Assembly: GCF_900491935.1 (NCBI RefSeq)
Contig: NZ_UEXK01000004.1
Location: forward strand, 4,673,628-4,731,847
Direction: 5' to 3'
Length of the DNA stretch: 58,220 nt
Origin: Klenkia terrae
Lineage (GTDB): Bacteria > Actinomycetota > Actinomycetes > Mycobacteriales > Geodermatophilaceae
Positions 4,263 through 58,220 of the stretch are shown here, one piece after another (position 1 is the first letter of the stretch; each line of letters opens with the position of its first letter). The translations under genes and the position numbers were made by a program. Under the pieces are notes generated by a model. That model had not been told where the DNA came from. It saw nothing but the letters and a program-made list of their open reading frames with translations, and did not search any database.

Positions 4263-4733
4263 TCACCCGGGGGTGCCGGTCCCCGCGCGCACGACCGTCA
4301 CCGGGCAGTGCGCGTGCTCGACGACCTGGTTGCTGACCGAACCCAGCAGCAGTCCGCGGAACCCACCCTGCCCGCGCGCGCCGACGACGACCAGGTCGGC
4401 CGCGTCGGAGGCCTCCACCAGCGCCCGGGACGGCGGTGCGTGCACCACGTGGCTGGTCACGTCGACCCCGGCGGCGGCCACCTCGGCCACGTGCTGCCGG
4501 AGCTGGTCGGCGACCGCCTGCTCCCACTCCTCCATCGGGGGGATGAAGCCGCCGGTCGCCGCGGCCGGGCTCGGCGCGGTGGTCAGCGACCACGCCCGCA
4601 CCACGTGCACCGGCCAGTGCCCCCGCGCCGCCACGCGCAGCGCCCAGGTCAGCGCCTCCTGCGCGCCGGCCGAGCCGTCGTGCCCCACGACCATCCCGCC
4701 GGTGACCTCGGCATGCTCACGTACGTCGCCCAC
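4263..4733 (-). CDS. Single-domain universal stress protein
   Basis: This 156-residue protein has one Usp domain. It starts MVVGHDGSAG about 13 residues in and ends with the complete nucleotide-binding pattern GARGQGGFRGLLLGS, so ATP binding is likely. The GTG at 4733 was chosen because GAGGAG lies about 7 bases upstream. It is transcribed just ahead of the devS-like kinase with a 12 bp gap, so stress protein and sensor probably share a transcript. A DevR-like box lies about 75 bp upstream of the start. Confidence 0.85.
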   Translation of the reverse strand: MGDVREHAEVTGGMVVGHDGSAGAQEALTWALRVAARGHWPVHVVRAWSLTTAPSPAAATGGFIPPMEEWEQAVADQLRQHVAEVAAAGVDVTSHVVHAPPSRALVEASDAADLVVVGARGQGGFRGLLLGSVSNQVVEHAHCPVTVVRAGTGTPG

Positions 4734-4843: not shown

Positions 4844-5839
4844 TCAGACCGGGACGGTGGCCGCCAGGTGCGGGTGGGTCACGTGCCCGACCCCCGGGCG
4901 GTCGCCCACGCGCTGCAGCAGCACCGGGCACGGGGCGTGCAGGGCGCAGTGCAGCGCCACCGAGCCCAGCACCATCCCCATCAGCTGGCCGGCGCCGTGG
5001 CTGCCGACCACGAGCAGGGAGGCACCGGCCGCCCGGGCCACGAGCGCCTGACCGGGCTGCTCGGCCAGCACGTGCAGCTGCACCGGCACCTCCGGCAGAT
5101 CCGCCTCGGCCGCGGCCGCCCGCACCTCGACCAGCACGCGGTCGGCACCTGCTGCTGCTCGACGCTGCAGGTCCGCGGCCGGCGGTGGCGACACCACGGA
5201 ACTGGTCCGGGCCAGCCCGTCGTCGAAGGCCACGACGACGTCCACCACCGCGTCGACGCGTCCGGCCGCCGCGATCGCGGCGAGCAGTGCAGCAGCCGAG
5301 GTGGGCGAGCCGTCGACGCCGACGACCACCCTGCGGCGGGCCGCGCGCGGGGCGGGGGTGACCGAGGCCGGGACGACGACGAACGGGGAGTGCGCGTGCC
5401 CGGCGCAGTGCAACGACACCGAGCCCAGCAGAAGGCTGCGGATCGCGGTCCGGCCGCGGCTGCCCACGACCAGCAGTGCGGCCCCGCGGGACCGCTCGAC
5501 CAGGTCGATGGCCGGGGAGCCGGCCACGGCGAGCACCTCGACCGGGAGCTCCTCGATCCCCGTCACCCCGGCGGCGACGAGCTCGGCGGTGACCTCCTCC
5601 AGCAGACGCCCGGTCTGCCGGGCCGTCTCCTGCCGGATCTCCTCGAACGGGAACGCGGCGGCCATGTACGAGCCGGCCGTGTAGTAGTCGACGGGGAACG
5701 AGGTGACCACCTGGACGCACGCCCCGCGGCGGGCCGCCTCGGGGAGACCCCAGGCCAGGGCCGCCCGCGCACCGGGCGAGTCGTCCACGCCGATGACGAC
5801 GCGGGGCCGGCCCGGGTCGGTACCGGGCGTCGAGGTCAC
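4844..5839 (-). CDS. Universal stress protein, tandem UspA domains
   Basis: This 331-residue protein has two complete Usp domains. Domain 1 begins VVIGVDDSPG and carries GSRGRTAIRSLLLGS; domain 2 begins VVVGVDGSPT and carries GSHGAGQLMGMVLGS. Both have the G-2x-G-9x-G-S ATP-binding pattern. Length and layout match the tandem Usp proteins of the mycobacterial DosR regulon. The start is the GTG at 5839, which overlaps the TGA of the upstream DUF4342 gene (GTGA) and implies coupled translation. The 110 bp downstream gap separates it from the next usp gene and may hold a separate promoter for that one. Confidence 0.87.
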   Translation of the reverse strand: MTSTPGTDPGRPRVVIGVDDSPGARAALAWGLPEAARRGACVQVVTSFPVDYYTAGSYMAAAFPFEEIRQETARQTGRLLEEVTAELVAAGVTGIEELPVEVLAVAGSPAIDLVERSRGAALLVVGSRGRTAIRSLLLGSVSLHCAGHAHSPFVVVPASVTPAPRAARRRVVVGVDGSPTSAAALLAAIAAAGRVDAVVDVVVAFDDGLARTSSVVSPPPAADLQRRAAAGADRVLVEVRAAAAEADLPEVPVQLHVLAEQPGQALVARAAGASLLVVGSHGAGQLMGMVLGSVALHCALHAPCPVLLQRVGDRPGVGHVTHPHLAATVPV

Positions 5840-7889: not shown

Positions 7890-8909
7890 TCATCCGGGGG
7901 CTCCGGCGCCGACAGCGCCGACGACGCCGTCGGCCCGCAGCCGCCCCGGAGCCCAGGACCGGTTCGTCGGGCGGACGACGAGCACGGGGCACGGTGCGTG
8001 CAGGACGCAGTGGAGAGCCACCGACCCCAGCAGCAGACCCCGGAACTCGCCTCGACCTCGGCTGGCGACCACGAGCAGGTCGGCACCTGCCGCCTGGTCG
8101 ACCAGCGCCGGACCGGCCTCGCCCCCGACCGCGAGCCGGTGCACGTCGGCATGCTCCCCACGCGTGGCCTGCAGCAGCGTGGTCAGGCCCTGCTCCAGCG
8201 CAGCCAGCTCGGCGGCGTCCCGCTCGGCCGGGGTCGGGGCGACGGCTGCGTACTGGTCGAACCACAGGTCGGCCACCCCGTAGGCCCGGACAGCGGTGAC
8301 CTGACCTCGGGGGCCGGCTTCCTCCATCGCCCAGGCGACGGCGGCGGCCGAGCGCTCCGACCCGTCGACCCCGGCGACGACGACCGTCCCCGGGCCGGGA
8401 TCGGCCCAGCCACCGGGCTCGGGCACCACCACCACCGGGCAGGCCGACGAGCTCACGCAGTGCAGGGCCACCGACCCCAGCACCGCACTGGCCGCGTATC
8501 CCCGGCCCCGGGTGCCGACCACCATCAGATCCGCATCGTGGGAGCGGTGGACGAGCAGCTCGGCCGGCGGTCCCGGCTCGACGTGGATCGCGACCGGGAC
8601 GGAGAGGAGGGCGGCGTCCTCCTCGCGGACCTGGTCCACCGTCTCCCGGGCCGCCGACCAGGTGTCGTCGTGCAGGGCGTCCAGGGCGCTCAGATCGGTC
8701 ACCTCACCCATCGCCAGCCACCCCATCGAGCCCACCGCCGGGTACGCCGCGACCACCTGCACCTCGGCCGCGTGCCGAGCCGCCCAGTGCAGCGCCCAGC
8801 GCACCGCGGCGCGCGAGCCGGTCGACCCGTCCACCCCGACGAGCACCTGCGGCGGCGTCACCAGGTCGGTGGTGGGGTCGGCGTGCCGGTGTCGGGGTGC
8901 TGCAGCCAC
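7890..8909 (-). CDS. Universal stress protein, tandem UspA domains
   Basis: This 339-residue protein has two Usp domains. The first begins VLVGVDGSTG and ends with GTRGRGYAASAVLGS. The second begins VVAGVDGSER and ends with ASRGRGEFRGLLLGS. The first keeps the full ATP-binding pattern and the second has Ala in place of the first Gly. The GTG at 8909 was chosen because GAGGAG lies about 6 bases upstream. It heads a minus-strand unit with two small unknown genes and is divergent from the nitroreductase gene. The 205 bp between them is rich in GGGAC/GTCCC half-sites. Confidence 0.87.
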   Translation of the reverse strand: MAAAPRHRHADPTTDLVTPPQVLVGVDGSTGSRAAVRWALHWAARHAAEVQVVAAYPAVGSMGWLAMGEVTDLSALDALHDDTWSAARETVDQVREEDAALLSVPVAIHVEPGPPAELLVHRSHDADLMVVGTRGRGYAASAVLGSVALHCVSSSACPVVVVPEPGGWADPGPGTVVVAGVDGSERSAAAVAWAMEEAGPRGQVTAVRAYGVADLWFDQYAAVAPTPAERDAAELAALEQGLTTLLQATRGEHADVHRLAVGGEAGPALVDQAAGADLLVVASRGRGEFRGLLLGSVALHCVLHAPCPVLVVRPTNRSWAPGRLRADGVVGAVGAGAPG

Positions 8910-48412: not shown

Positions 48413-49693
48413 ATGCCCTCGTCCAGCGCGGCCGGCTCCGGCCTGCGCGTGCACCCGTTCCGGGCGCTCACCTACGCCGCCCGGAGCCCCGAGCAGCTCG
48501 CCCGGGTCAGCTCCCCCGCCTACGACCTGGTCACCGCTGCGGGCCGGAGCCGGCTGGCCGCGGCCGACCCGCACAACGTCGTCCGGCTGATCCTGCCGGC
48601 GGTCGAGGACCGGCCCGGCGAGGCACCCGCGGACCGGACGGCCCGCTCGGCCGCCCTGTCCGCGGCCACGCTGCGGGACTGGCAGACCTCCGGCGTGCTC
48701 GTGCAGGACGGCACGCCCGCGCTGTGGAGCTACCGGATGAGCGGGCCCGACGGCGCCGCCACCACCGGTTGGCTGGTCGCCGTGGAGCTGCCGCCGGCCG
48801 GCTCCCGCGCCGTGCTGCCGCACGAGGACGTGTTCGCCCCCGCGGTGGAGGGCCGCCGGTCGCTGCTGGCCGCGACCGGCACCGACCTGGAACCCATCGT
48901 GCTGGCCCACGACCGGTCCGACGCCGTGGCGCGGTGGACCGCCGACGTGCTCGAGCGGCCCGTGGACCTGCAGGTCACCGATGCCGACGGGGTCCGGCAC
49001 GAGCTGCGGCGGGTCGAGGACCCGGCGGCGCTGGCCGACCTCACCGAGGGGTTCGCCGGGGTGGCGGCGGTCATCGCCGACGGTCACCACCGGTTCGCCG
49101 CGGCCCGGGCCCACGCGGGCCCCCACGGGGGGTCGGTGCTGGCGCTGCTGACACCGATGGGTCCCGGCGGCCTCCGGGTGCAGGCGATCCACCGGGTCGT
49201 GCCCGGGCTGGACCTGGCGGCGGCCGGCGAGCTGGCCTCCACCGGCTTCCGGGTCACCCGCGTGGACACGACGGCGGTCGAGGGCGGCGCGGCGGCGGTG
49301 GCCCGGGACTGGGTGGCCGAGCCCGGGCAGGACTGCTTCCTGGTCACCGACGGCACCGACGTCCTGCTGCTCTCGTCGCCCACGGACGCGGTGCGGGCGC
49401 GCATCCCGACCGGCCAGCCGGACAGCTGGCGGTCGCTGGACGTCGTGCTTGCCCACGCCGGGCTGCTCAGCGGCCTGTGGGGGCTGCCCGACGACCCGAC
49501 GGCGGTGCTGGTCGCCCACGACGTCCCCGAGGCGCTGCGGCTGGCCCGGGAGCGGGACGGGGTGGCCCTGCTGCTGCGGTCGTCGTCCCCGGCCGACGTC
49601 GCCGCGGTGGCCCGGGACGGCGCCCGGATGCCGCGCAAGTCGACGCTGTTCGTGCCCAAGCCGCGCACCGGCCTGGTGTTCCGCCCGCACTGA
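48413..49693 (+). CDS. DUF1015-family protein
   Basis: This 426-residue protein matches DUF1015. It has LRVHPFRALTYAARSPEQLARVSSPAYDLV at the N-terminus, NVVRLILPAVED near residue 55, and the conserved ADGHHRFAAARAH near residue 223. It ends with PRKSTLFVPKPRTGLVF. The family is widespread but its reaction is not established; the DGHHR motif suggests a ParB/sulfiredoxin-like nucleotide-binding active site. The ATG at 48413 is well placed. It is divergent from the HAD gene and convergent with ssb. Confidence 0.88.
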   Translation: MPSSSAAGSGLRVHPFRALTYAARSPEQLARVSSPAYDLVTAAGRSRLAAADPHNVVRLILPAVEDRPGEAPADRTARSAALSAATLRDWQTSGVLVQDGTPALWSYRMSGPDGAATTGWLVAVELPPAGSRAVLPHEDVFAPAVEGRRSLLAATGTDLEPIVLAHDRSDAVARWTADVLERPVDLQVTDADGVRHELRRVEDPAALADLTEGFAGVAAVIADGHHRFAAARAHAGPHGGSVLALLTPMGPGGLRVQAIHRVVPGLDLAAAGELASTGFRVTRVDTTAVEGGAAAVARDWVAEPGQDCFLVTDGTDVLLLSSPTDAVRARIPTGQPDSWRSLDVVLAHAGLLSGLWGLPDDPTAVLVAHDVPEALRLARERDGVALLLRSSSPADVAAVARDGARMPRKSTLFVPKPRTGLVFRPH

Positions 49694-50182: not shown

Positions 50183-52624
50183 TCAGTCCGTCGGTCGGTC
50201 GTGCTCGCTCAGCTCACCGGGCGCGGCGAACAGACCCGACTGGTCGGCCGGCAGCGGCTTGGGCTGCACCTGGGTGACCTGCTCGGCGGGCTGGCCGTCG
50301 GAGAACCCGGGGGCCGGGATCTCGCCGAGGAGCTCGGCGACCTCGGACTCGACGTCCTGCTCGTCGGGGTCGTACTCGGTGCCGAGCCCGGCCTCCTCCG
50401 GAGACACGTCGTCGTCCTCGTCAGCGTCGTCCTCGTCAGCGTCGTCCTCGACGGCGTCGTCGTCCTCGGCCGCCACCTCGCTGCCGGCGGCGGCGTCCTC
50501 GACCACGGGGACCTCCACCGCGTCGCCCTCGGCCTCGTCGTCCTCGGCCTCACCGTCGGCGGAGTCGACGACGCCCTCGTCGTCACCGTCCTCGTCCTCG
50601 TCCTCGTCGTAGTCGACGTCGTCGAAGCGGGCAGCCACCCCGGTCTCGTCGTCGGGGTCGGCGGCCATGACGGCCTCGAACCAGGTGTGCGCCTGCTGGT
50701 CCTCGCCGCGCGCGACCAGCAGGTCGGCGTAGGCGGTGGCCAGCCGGAGCTGCCCCAGGTCGCCCGAGTCGAGCTGCTCGGGCGTGGGTCGGCCACCCAG
50801 CGCGGCCTCGAGCACCAGCGCGGCGGCCGGCAGCTCCCCGAGGTCCTGGCGGGCCCCGGCCTCGACCAGGCGGAGCTCGACGACCTCCTCGGCCGGAGGT
50901 CCATCGGTCAGCGCCTCGGCGACCAGGCGCAGGGCCACGTCGGGCCGGCCCAGCGCGCGCTCGCAGTCGGCGAGGACGGCCCGGTAGGAGTCGTCCCCGC
51001 TCATCCGGCGGTAGGCACGCAGCTCGCGGGCCGCCTCGGTGAAGTCGCCGGCGTGGTAGGCCGCCACGCCGACGGCCTCGCGGACCACGGCGATGCGGGA
51101 GGCCCGCTCGCGTGCGGCCTGGGCGTGCAGGAGCGCAGCGGCCGGGTCCTCGTCGAGCAGGCCGCCGGCGGCGGCCAGGTGCTGGCCGACGACGTCGGCG
51201 TTGCGGGACTCCAGGCCGCGCAGTGCCCGGCGGACGGTGCCGTCGAGCTGCTGCGGGTCGGCCCACTCCGGGATCGGCGGCCCGACGGCTCGGCGGGTGT
51301 CGCCGGAGTCCCGGGGACCGCTGTCCCGCCGGTCCTGCTGGGGACGGTCGCCACCACGCGCGGGACGGCGGTCGGTCCCGGCCGGTCGACCGCCACCGGA
51401 GGACGGGCGACCGCCACCCCGCTGCGGCCGGTCGCCACCAGCGCCTCCGCGGTCCTGCCACGCCGGCCGGTCACCGCCGGCGGGACGGCCACCACCGGCG
51501 GGACGGCGGTCCTGCCACTGCGGGCGGTCGCCACCGGAGGGCCGGTCCCCACCGGCCGGACGACGGTCCTGCCACGCGGGGCGGTCACCGCCGGCGGGGC
51601 GGTCGCCGGACGGGCGGCGGTCCTGCCGCTGCGGGCGGTCCCCACCGGAGGGTCGGTCACCGCCAGCCGGGCGACGGTCCTGCCACGCCGGGCGGTCGCC
51701 ACCGGCGGGGCGGCCACCGGACGGGCGACCACCACCCGCGGGGCGGCGGTCCTGCCACTGCGGACGGTCGCCACCGGAGGGCCGGTCCCCACCGGCCGGG
51801 CGACGGTCCCGCCACGACGGACGGTCACCACCGGCGGGACGATCGCCGGACGGGCGACGGTCCTGCCACGACGGGCGACCACCGCTGGCACCGTCGCGAC
51901 CCGGGCGGTCGGCACCGGGGCCGCCGGTGCGGGGCTTGGCGGAGCCGCCGTAGCGCGGCTGCCAGTCCCCGCTCAGCCGGGCACGCTCCCGCGCACCGGG
52001 CAGCTGCTCGCCCGAGGGCGACGCCTGCCGCGGGGCAGCGGGCCCACGGGCACCGGCGGAGCGGTCCTGCCAGGCCGGGCGACCGCCGTCGCGCCCACCG
52101 GCACCACGGTCCTGCCACTGCGGCCGGTCACCCTGCGGGCGGCCACCCTGGGGACGGCCAGCCTGCGGACGACCCTGGGCACCACCGGCACCGGGTCGAC
52201 GCTCCTGCCAGTCAACGCGGCCGCCCTGTCCACCGGCCGCGGGCCGACGGTCCTGGCCCGGTCGGCCGGTCGATCCACCACGGGACCCGGACGGCGCACC
52301 ACGGCCACCCTCGGCCGGTCGCCGGTCCTGCCAGCCGCCGCTCGAGCGCCCGTCCCCGCGGGAGGGACCGCCCTCGCGTCGGGCACCGGGGCCGCCGGCG
52401 GAGTCACGACGCGGGCCGGCGCTCCAGCCGCGCGAGTCACCACCGGGTCGACCGCCACGGTCGTCACGTGACGCTGCGCCGCCCTCGGGGCGGGGACGGC
52501 CCTGGCCGGCCACACCGCGGCGGTCTCCGCCGGCCGGTCGGCCGGGACGGCCGGCGCCACCGCCGGGGGGACGACCGCTGCCGCCCCTGTCGGATCCGCC
52601 GTTGCCGCGTCGCGGTGAAGTCAT
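50183..52624 (-). CDS. Arg/Gly-rich disordered repeat protein with TPR-like domain and acidic tail
   Basis: This 813-residue protein has three very different parts. Residues 1 to about 430 are disordered and rich in G, R, D, P, Q and W, with tandem copies of a motif such as GGDRPAWQDRRPAG. A folded helical part (about 440-640) resembles TPR repeats (LHAQAARERASRIAVVREAV; AGDFTEAARELRAY). The C-terminal 170 residues are strongly acidic (DEDEDEDGDDEG). A shorter relative without the long repeat occurs near tlyA in mycobacteria (Rv1691). RG-rich plus acidic segments suggest RNA or DNA binding or condensate formation; that is inference. The ATG at 52624 is clear. The gene lies 83 bp after the rRNA terminator. 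Confidence 0.85.
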   Translation of the reverse strand: MTSPRRGNGGSDRGGSGRPPGGGAGRPGRPAGGDRRGVAGQGRPRPEGGAASRDDRGGRPGGDSRGWSAGPRRDSAGGPGARREGGPSRGDGRSSGGWQDRRPAEGGRGAPSGSRGGSTGRPGQDRRPAAGGQGGRVDWQERRPGAGGAQGRPQAGRPQGGRPQGDRPQWQDRGAGGRDGGRPAWQDRSAGARGPAAPRQASPSGEQLPGARERARLSGDWQPRYGGSAKPRTGGPGADRPGRDGASGGRPSWQDRRPSGDRPAGGDRPSWRDRRPAGGDRPSGGDRPQWQDRRPAGGGRPSGGRPAGGDRPAWQDRRPAGGDRPSGGDRPQRQDRRPSGDRPAGGDRPAWQDRRPAGGDRPSGGDRPQWQDRRPAGGGRPAGGDRPAWQDRGGAGGDRPQRGGGRPSSGGGRPAGTDRRPARGGDRPQQDRRDSGPRDSGDTRRAVGPPIPEWADPQQLDGTVRRALRGLESRNADVVGQHLAAAGGLLDEDPAAALLHAQAARERASRIAVVREAVGVAAYHAGDFTEAARELRAYRRMSGDDSYRAVLADCERALGRPDVALRLVAEALTDGPPAEEVVELRLVEAGARQDLGELPAAALVLEAALGGRPTPEQLDSGDLGQLRLATAYADLLVARGEDQQAHTWFEAVMAADPDDETGVAARFDDVDYDEDEDEDGDDEGVVDSADGEAEDDEAEGDAVEVPVVEDAAAGSEVAAEDDDAVEDDADEDDADEDDDVSPEEAGLGTEYDPDEQDVESEVAELLGEIPAPGFSDGQPAEQVTQVQPKPLPADQSGLFAAPGELSEHDRPTD
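51450..51890. repeat. In-frame tandem repeat array inside the Arg/Gly-rich gene
   Basis: The unit containing GGTCCTGCCA recurs with starts at 51451, 51508, 51565, 51619, 51676, 51748, 51805 and 51859 (some copies differ by one or two bases). Spacings are 57, 57, 54, 57, 72, 57 and 54, all multiples of three, so each unit encodes 18, 19 or 24 residues of the DRPxWQDRRP type. Confidence 0.85.
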
Positions 52625-52749: not shown

Positions 52750-52866
52750 GTCCGGCGGCGTCCTACTCTCCCACCCAGTCCCCCGGGCAGTACCATCGGC
52801 GCTGAGAGGCTTAGCTTCCGGGTTCGGAATGAGACCGGGCGTTTCCCTCTCGCCATGACCGCCGTA
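52750..52866 (-). rRNA. rrf: 5S ribosomal RNA
   Basis: On the minus strand the gene begins TACGGCGGTCATGGCGAGAG, contains CCGAACCCGGAAGCTAAGCC, and ends near AGTAGGACGCCGCC. These are standard actinobacterial 5S features over about 117 nt. End positions are approximate to within a few bases. Confidence 0.95.
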
Positions 52867-53017
52867 ACGCTGTGAAAGTTTCCACCCCTGTCGCACCCGG
52901 TCAAAGGGATGCTGGTGGGGCGGTCTGTGGAGCACACACGAGGTGTGTCCGTTCTTTCAGAACCGCACAGTGGACGCGAGACAAGATCTTGCTGATTGCG
53001 TGAATGTTTGAGGTGAG
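52867..53017 (-). other. 23S-5S spacer
   Basis: About 150 bp between 23S and 5S rRNA on the minus strand. It contains no tRNA gene. It includes a TTGAATGTTTG-like AT-rich stretch next to 23S and a processing-stem-like region, as usual for these spacers. Confidence 0.8.
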
Positions 53018-56147
<3,130 letters not shown>

Positions 56148-56242
56148 GAACACACAAACAAACAATCACTACAAGATGCTCGCGTCCACTGTGCAGTTCT
56201 CAAAGAACGAACGACCACCCACCCCACACCCACCACCAACAC
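56148..56242 (-). other. Truncated 16S-23S spacer, possibly running into P5 adapter
   Basis: The part next to 23S (to about 56212) is normal spacer; on the minus strand it includes TTCGTTCTTTGAGAACTGCA, typical of actinobacteria. From about 56213 the sequence becomes a C/A-only low-complexity run that loosely matches the P5 oligo part GACCACCGAGATCTACAC. It ends directly at a Read 1 adapter. The 16S gene is missing, and the true spacer probably ends here. Confidence 0.55.
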
Positions 56243-56275
56243 CCGCCGGCAGGGTCAGGTGTGTATAGGAGCCGG
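56243..56275 (+). other. Internal Nextera Read 1 adapter remnant (chimeric junction)
   Basis: The 33 bases match the full Nextera Read 1 adapter plus mosaic end at 26 positions, including GGCAG, GTCAG and TGTGTATA. Mismatches are T to C, A to G/C and one C to G, as at the contig ends. An adapter cannot be genomic here, so the sequences on either side are not necessarily neighbours on the chromosome. Confidence 0.92.
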
Positions 56276-56977
56276 GTGCACGCGCGCCCACCCGGCGCCC
56301 ACCGGGCGCCCGCTCCCCCGCCGGTGGTCCGTCCCCCGGCGCCGGTCGAGCCCGAGGTGCCGGAGGTCCTCGAGGTCGACGAGGTCATCGAGGTCGAGGA
56401 GGAGGTCCCGGCCGAGCCGGAGGGCGAGGAGCAGGTCGCCGTCTGGGCGCTGGTGGAGCGGGCCCAGGCCGGGGAGGCCGAGGCGTTCGGCCAGCTCTAC
56501 GACCGGTACGCCGACATGGTGTTCCGGTACCTCTACCACCGGGTGTCCGACCGGCAGACCGCCGAGGACTTCACCAGCGAGACCTTCGTGCGGGCGCTGC
56601 GCCGGATCGACTCGCTGTCCTTCCAGGGCCGCGACGTCGGTGCCTGGCTGGTCACCATCGCCCGCAACATCGTCCGCGACCACGTGAAGAGCAGTCGGTT
56701 CCGCCTGGAGGTCACCACCGCCGACATGCGCGACGCCGACCGGGTGACCGCCGGCCCGGAGGACGCGGTCCTGCAGGGGCTGACTAACGCGGAGCTGCTG
56801 GCCTGCGTCGCGCAGCTCGGCGACGAGCAGCGCGAGTGCATCGCGCTGCGTTTCCTGCAGGGGCTGTCGGTGGCCGAGACGGCGGCCGCGATGGGCAAGA
56901 AGGACGGCGCGATCAAGGCCCTGCAGCACCGGGCCGTGAAGCGGCTGGCCGGCCTGCTGCCGGAGGGACTGCGATGA
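56276..56977 (+). CDS. bldN: BldN-like ECF sigma factor, 5' end cut at adapter
   Basis: Visible are 233 residues of an ECF sigma factor. The first 65 are Pro/Glu-rich, then comes region 2 (WALVERAQAGEAEAFGQLYD; RYLYHRVSDRQTAEDFTSET; GAWLVTIARNIVRDH) and region 4 (LGDEQRECIALRFLQGLSVAETA). The block SSRFRLEVTTADM after region 2 and KKDGAIKALQHRAVKRL at the end closely match Streptomyces BldN, which controls development and has an N-terminal pro-sequence. The first genomic base is about 56276, in frame but not a proven start; an upstream GTG at 56261 lies in adapter. The probable anti-sigma gene follows after 121 bp. Confidence 0.85.
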   Translation: MHARPPGAHRAPAPPPVVRPPAPVEPEVPEVLEVDEVIEVEEEVPAEPEGEEQVAVWALVERAQAGEAEAFGQLYDRYADMVFRYLYHRVSDRQTAEDFTSETFVRALRRIDSLSFQGRDVGAWLVTIARNIVRDHVKSSRFRLEVTTADMRDADRVTAGPEDAVLQGLTNAELLACVAQLGDEQRECIALRFLQGLSVAETAAAMGKKDGAIKALQHRAVKRLAGLLPEGLR

Positions 56978-57098: not shown

Positions 57099-58129
57099 GT
57101 GAACGACGCGGAGCTGCAGACGGCCCTGGCCGCGCGCCTGCGGTCGCTGTCCCGGGACGAACCCGACCTCACCGCCGACGTGCGGGCCGCGCAGCGTGCG
57201 CGGCTGGTGGCGATGGCCGCCGTGCGATCGGTGGGGGCGACCGCCGTCCGGACCCCGGACGCCGGGGCCAGCCGCTGGCAGCGGCTGCTCGCCGGGCGGG
57301 CCGACGACGCGCCGGTCAGCCGCTGGCGCACCCGGCTGACGGCCGGGCTGGTCGGGGCCGCGATGTCGGTGGGCGCGCTGTCCGGTCTGCTGGCGCTGGC
57401 CCAGGACGCCGAACCCGGCGACCTGCTCTACGGCCTCAAGCGCGGCGGCGAGGAGACCCAGCTCGCGCTGGCCTCCGACGAGGACCGCGGGCTCACCCTG
57501 CTGACCTTCGCCAGCACCCGGCTGGCCGAGCTGGCCGACCTCACCGGCTCCGAGGCCGGCGCCGCACCGGCCTCGGTGGGCGGTGACCTGCCGGGCACCG
57601 GCGTGGCCGCCTCCGGGGCGGACGCCGGGACCGTGGTCGACGTGCTGACCACGATGGACGACCAGACCATCGAGGGCACCGCCGCGCTGACCACCACCGC
57701 GGTCCAGGCCGGCGACGAGGCTGCGCTGGACACGCTGGCGGAGTGGACGACCGGTCAGCGGGCGGGGCTGGACGCACTCGACGTCCCCGTCGGCGCCGAG
57801 GAGGCGGTGGCCGCATCGGTGGGCCTGGTCGACGAGGTGGCCGCCCGCGGCGCGGCGCTGCAGGCCGTGCTGGCCTGCCCCGCCGGCGCGGCGGACGCCG
57901 GCAGCGACCGGCTGGGCGTCGTCCCCGGGCCGTGCCTGGCCGACGTCCCGGTGCCGACGTCCTCGGCGACGCCGTCGACGGGCGCGGGCACCACCGTCGC
58001 GCCGGGTGCGCCGACCGCCCAGGCCCCGGCCCCCGGCGCTCCGGCGCAGCCGACGACCACGGTGCCCGGCCAGTCCGGCGGCGGTGCGGGGGCCTCGACA
58101 CCGGCCCGGACGTCGACCCAGGCCCCGGC
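57099..58129 (+). CDS. rsbN: RsbN-like membrane anti-sigma factor (DUF5667), 3' end cut at adapter
   Basis: About 343 residues are visible. The cytoplasmic N-terminal part (1-77) includes AAQRARLVAMAAVRS. One membrane span lies at about 78-101 (TAGLVGAAMSVGALSGLLAL). It is followed by the DUF5667 hallmark PGDLLYGLKRGGEETQLALA near residue 106 and a long extracytoplasmic tail ending in Ala/Pro/Thr/Gly-rich sequence. RsbN in Streptomyces has this layout and inhibits BldN. The GTG at 57099 has GGGAG about 7 bases upstream. Genomic sequence ends near 58129; the last residues and stop of the open frame are adapter-derived, so the true C-terminus is missing. Confidence 0.8.
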
Positions 58130-58220
58130 CCGTCTCTTATACACACCCCCGCGCCCACGAGACCAGAGAGGAACTCGTATCCGGTCGTCTGCTCGCTAAA
58201 AAAAAAATAGTAGAATCCTA
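58130..58220 (-). other. Nextera Read 2 / i7 / P7 adapter read-through with poly-A
   Basis: Positions 130-148 of this last kilobase match the mosaic end CTGTCTCTTATACACATCT at 16 of 19 bases. 58149-58163 matches CCGAGCCCACGAGAC at 14 of 15. 58164-58171 reads CAGAGAGG, identical to a standard Nextera i7 index. 58172-58195 matches the P7 oligo ATCTCGTATGCCGTCTTCTGCTTG at about 20 of 24. A run of ten A at 58198-58207 follows, as in reads that run past the end of a fragment. None of this is genomic. Confidence 0.96.

Follow-up and report, generated by a model that had tools for sequence, protein, structure and literature searches.

Right end of the main Klenkia terrae scaffold: an adapter-marked and almost certainly false join between an rRNA operon and bldN-rsbN

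Three kinds of described system come close to the locus analysed here: i) draft assemblies with residual Nextera adapter, in which the mosaic end with the Read 1 or Read 2 tag is found at contig ends, together with index- or P7-like remnants; ii) short-read assemblies misjoined at an rRNA repeat, where the sequence breaks off within the 16S-23S spacer and the rest of the operon turns up at another place in the scaffold; and iii) the bldN-rsbN locus of actinomycetes, in which the gene for a BldN-type sigma factor is followed by that of its partner (PMC4255298). The present locus shares these traits and departs from each system in one respect. The adapter copies recovered here by a scan, 37 in number, carry two or three mismatches, and the one at position 56243 is contig-internal, with no gap beside it; the wrong partner of the rRNA spacer is an adapter-tailed single-copy piece and not a repeat copy; and both genes of the bldN-rsbN pair are truncated by the ends of the piece on which they lie.

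The published description (PMC7311423) presents Klenkia terrae IHUMI-26.3, deposited as CSURP6454, as a draft of 23 scaffolds (4,806,923 bp, of which the major scaffold accounts for 4,731,847 bp), sequenced on a MiSeq and assembled with CLC 7.5 from trimmed paired-end reads. Nextera XT is named there for the stool libraries, while the library of the isolate is given by reference to an earlier protocol. In that paper the words operon and bldN do not occur and the word adapter occurs once, with respect to library making (a count that does not amount to a systematic literature search for the join). The assembly analysed here, which we take from its equal sizes to be that of IHUMI-26.3, has 23 contigs and 4,806,923 bases. 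The window, i.e. the whole stretch of DNA that was analysed, comprises the final 58,220 bases of scaffold C4 (4,731,847 bases), and one N (C4:4673627) directly precedes its first position.

The sequence evidence makes it almost certain that the right end of the window is a chimera that originated in sequencing or assembly, and that the apparent neighbourhood of the rRNA operon and bldN is false. The first-pass annotation had proposed such an artefact, and the proposal is borne out by the adapter at the junction, by a slot elsewhere in the scaffold that overlaps the piece at 54 of 54 bases, by the gene order in relatives and by the location of the 16S half of the operon. The false join is an ordinary artefact and not a real feature, and there is nothing unusual about either the bldN-rsbN pair or the rRNA operon, both of which belong elsewhere. 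With this reading a false gene neighbourhood is removed and the truncation of two genes is explained, in a genome that serves here as the one representative of its species. The features concerned are collected in Table 1.

Table 1. Features of the window at the junction and at the contig ends (positions in the window)
Feature	Position	Strand	Remarks
Left contig end	1..100	+	bases weakly P5- and i5-like (alignment score 8, no control), then Read 1 adapter
Read 1 adapter copy near left contig end	68-100	+	28/33
5S rRNA of broken operon	52750..52866	-	Rfam RF00001, 100 bits
23S rRNA, full length	53014..56151	-	Rfam RF02541, 2802.6 bits, model 1-2925
23S-proximal 95 bases of 16S-23S spacer	56152..56246	-	last true operon bases in contig; 95/95 identical to both other operons
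Degraded Nextera Read 1 adapter	56243..56275	+	26/33; marks false join; first 4 bases common to spacer
bldN-type ECF sigma factor gene, 5'-truncated	56276..56977	+	PF04542 and PF08281 over cut-off
First insert bases, with errors	56276..56294	+	13/19 against C4:1422357-1422375, ungapped
Overlap with true left neighbour	56295..56348	+	54/54 identical to C4:1422376-1422429
rsbN-like gene (DUF5667), 3'-truncated	57102..58129	+	PF18915, 32.6 bits, cut-off 27; coordinates do not fix the start codon
Degraded Nextera Read 2 adapter	58130..58163	-	30/34 with Read 2 reverse complement on + strand
Library-molecule tail	58164..58220	+	index-like octamer CAGAGAGG, degraded P7-like bases, poly-A; local alignment to assumed index and P7 letters

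Adapters were scored against the letters that we take to be those of Nextera Read 1 (33 nt) and Read 2 (34 nt), the index and P7 letters being assumed in the same way, and 200 random sequences with the order-1 composition of the window served as control for both adapters on both strands. The control maximum was 23 for either adapter on either strand, against 26 of 33 at the junction, and synthetic sequence is thus present at 56243-56275 above chance; outside the copies at 68, 56243 and 58130 the top adapter score in the window was 19. The copy at the junction had initially been counted as a third, internal Read 1 copy: its score and its place stand, but it is the second Read 1-type copy and the third adapter overall. 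The description of the adjoining 1.85 kb as flanked by a Read 1 adapter on the left (56243) and a Read 2 adapter on the right (58130) was correct. Among the 16 adapter mismatches, 14 replace an A or T by a G or C; our guesses at how the degradation came about are that the letters were corrected towards the G+C-rich genome and that such copies survived trimming. The junction sequence could in principle be a natural Tn5-like transposon end, since the mosaic end of Nextera derives from Tn5, but the match continues through the synthetic parts of the tag, index-, P5- and P7-like bases occur at other copies, and the pair of genes recognised in the 1.85 kb code for a sigma factor and a DUF5667 protein, all of which makes such an origin, in place of a kit adapter, extremely improbable. 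A TruSeq-type adapter was also considered and rejected (no matches with up to three mismatches, and none to its 13-base core with up to two).

On the side of the rRNA operon, the sequences diverge beyond position 56246 (as judged by eye from the alignment). The full 16S-23S spacer is 426 nt in both other operons (from coordinates), and the spacer in the window is cut 95 bases from the 23S gene and about 331 short of the 16S gene, not exactly where the 16S should begin, as had been claimed. A 16S half is present near the beginning of the same scaffold (C4:2731-4319), directly past a 100-N gap, where a spacer remnant of 69 bases, identical to that of another operon, precedes the 16S gene (C4:2800-4319); beyond this 16S gene lies tyrS (TIGR00234, 334.7 bits). 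The window itself contains a DUF1015 gene (48413-49693; PF06245, 182.6 bits). The gene order in relatives, given below, suggests that the 16S half at the scaffold start and the 23S/5S half in the window belong together in the strain, and if these halves make up one operon, about 262 spacer bases would be missing. Directly downstream of the 5S gene an 813-aa open frame was found on the minus strand (50183-52624), the first half of which is repetitive and rich in Gly, Arg, Pro and Asp; two TPR matches in this frame were both under the cut-off.

The other side of the junction carries a protein with sigma-70 regions 2 and 4 above cut-off, for which the top NCBIfam match was the BldN family (TIGR02952; E 3e-59, 199.7 bits, below the cut-off of 206.45). 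The gene is single-copy in the genome at E <= 1e-30 and the adjoining DUF5667 gene agrees with an rsbN-like partner. A slot for this pair is found 1.4 Mb into the same scaffold, at a single N (C4:1422430). The 54 bases to the left of this N are identical to window positions 56295-56348, and genome-wide these bases match at 100% in the window and the slot only, the next matches being of 80% and 78%. The bldN frame runs on upstream in the left side of the slot, and to the right of the N lies an rsbN-like 3' end, the frame end of which resembles the RsbN-type proteins of four congeners (by eye). In one congener (L041) the sequences that flank bldN correspond to C4:1417705-1422368 and to the stretch that starts at C4:1422456. 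The first bases of the insert fit the slot at only 13 of 19 positions, and errors therefore extend slightly into the insert. The two sides of the junction have separate partners, the bldN piece at C4:1422430 and the 16S half with its spacer at C4:2731-4319. Judged from these matches, the single-N gap is almost certainly the true place of the 1.85-kb piece, and the piece has the look of an adapter-tailed contig that failed to merge into it. The start of the small unplaced contig C8 (17-815) corresponds to congener sequence situated a few kilobases downstream of rsbN, and at this place scaffold C4 is interrupted by 200 N (at 1427739). C8 is probably another displaced piece of the bldN-rsbN neighbourhood.

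Gene order was compared in bldN loci from GTDB (the best 80 of 302 confirmed relatives, with at least 3 kb upstream of bldN in 76 and at least 9 kb in 66), among which the four closest named loci were from Klenkia, and in six stretches of congener DNA, each 11-18 kb long with bldN inside, four of which also belong to the 80-locus set. Within the sequence present per locus, none of these 80 loci (best 80 of 302) contained 23S, 16S or 5S DNA at bldN, and no 23S DNA was found near bldN in the six congener stretches. In 79 of these loci (best 80 of 302), on the other hand, the upstream flank of the slot is present within the 6 kb that precede bldN, the sole miss (L211) being a locus that begins at bldN, without upstream bases; the downstream flank is present, at whatever position, in 69 of the same 80. 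In a single-contig congener (G006) the order tyrS, 16S, 23S, 5S, DUF1015 is unbroken (tyrS region 4056265-4057243, by homology; DUF1015 gene 4066020-4067261), where the two families were assigned on the copies of the Klenkia terrae genome itself and not on those of G006. This congener has three 23S genes, all of them more than 600 kb away from its bldN gene (1271331). Short-read contigs are often interrupted by rRNA, and a 23S match was absent in three of the seven congeners searched; absence in drafts is therefore weaker evidence than the arrangement in G006. The synteny of bldN-rsbN and of rRNA operons, which the first-pass annotation had named as a check, thus agrees with an artefact, and bldN directly upstream of a 23S gene was encountered neither among the 80 loci (best 80 of 302) nor in the six stretches.

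These comparisons also bear on the possibility that a real rearrangement put bldN-rsbN beside the rRNA operon in this strain and that the adapter-like stretch is incidental. The junction indeed contains no N and rRNA operons are able to recombine, but an adapter match above all 200 random controls, a 1.85-kb piece that terminates in a second adapter, and an arrangement seen in no relative examined (neither the best 80 of 302 loci nor the six congener stretches) render a rearrangement very improbable, as does the slot at C4:1422430, which keeps both gene ends and the identical 54-base overlap, something that is not expected after a gene has moved. That the culture was a mixed strain, some cells having a second bldN-rsbN copy beside the rRNA operon and the adapter again being incidental, we consider next to impossible.

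For an artefact, the following course of events would account for the observations. One contig would have run through the 5S and 23S genes into the 16S-23S spacer and stopped there; a second, short contig would have carried bldN and most of rsbN, with untrimmed and error-ridden Nextera adapters at both ends; and the Read 1 adapter would be the point at which the two were fused, without a gap being recorded. The home of the short contig would then be C4:1422430 and the real continuation of the spacer the 16S at C4:2731-4319. The 1.85 kb had been likened to a single library fragment or a short contig, and the second of these fits better, because inserts of MiSeq Nextera libraries are usually shorter than 1.85 kb. 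Untrimmed adapter sequence presumably caused the fusion, and the join was most likely made by the assembler or scaffolder and not by a chimeric library molecule. Counting against this course is that no N stands beside the adapter at 56243, although 27 of 29 measured copies in the assembly have one nearby, and that P5/i5-like bases are missing from it. Ligation or PCR may alternatively have combined a spacer fragment with an adapter-bearing bldN fragment in the library, to be copied by the assembler, in which case the join would still be an artefact. The spacer adjoins the adapter directly, without the P5/i5-like bases that several other copies in the assembly show, and gap-free adapters are also present in contigs C1 and C9, which speaks for such a chimera; the molecule would, however, have to outcompete the normal coverage of a three-copy spacer, and the errors around the adapter seem to resemble a poorly supported contig end, so that we regard a library chimera as possible yet rather unlikely. 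Similarity between P5 and the spacer was rejected as a cause of the fusion (score 9, equalled or beaten in 435 of 2384 control stretches).

Fusion of contigs by the assembler or scaffolder has to be seen against the state of the assembly as a whole. A genome-wide scan with the 19-base mosaic-end pattern (at most three mismatches, the reversed pattern as control) recovered 37 places, all with two or three mismatches and none with zero or one, as if only degraded adapters had escaped trimming; the reversed pattern gave 0. With 15 of 19 bases in agreement with the pattern, the copies at 68 and 56243 fall outside the 37. In the distinct copies that were measured (29 out of 37 listed) the commonest changes were A to G and A to C. 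An N run lies at most 152 bases upstream in 27 of these 29, and the loci of the other two, in C1 and C9, contain none. Degraded adapters remain in the assembly by the dozen, and some of its joins are marked by an adapter without a gap; conclusions about synteny or about where genes end consequently need checking when they are drawn from it.

Further instances were noted in passing. Contig C1 has an internal Read 1 adapter (4357-4389, 31/33) without a gap, and the blocks on either side of it are in the opposite order in G004, the sole strong match to both blocks among three relatives searched; a gapless adapter-marked join is therefore probably not unique to the window. The small unplaced contig C9 contains internal adapters at 5693 (Read 1, 27/33) and at 8882 (Read 2, 26/34). 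At the very start of scaffold C4 (1-2630), finally, the blocks at about 1-1503 and 1519-2573 are separated by some 100 kb in each of the three relatives searched, which probably represents another false join, or else a rearrangement in the strain.
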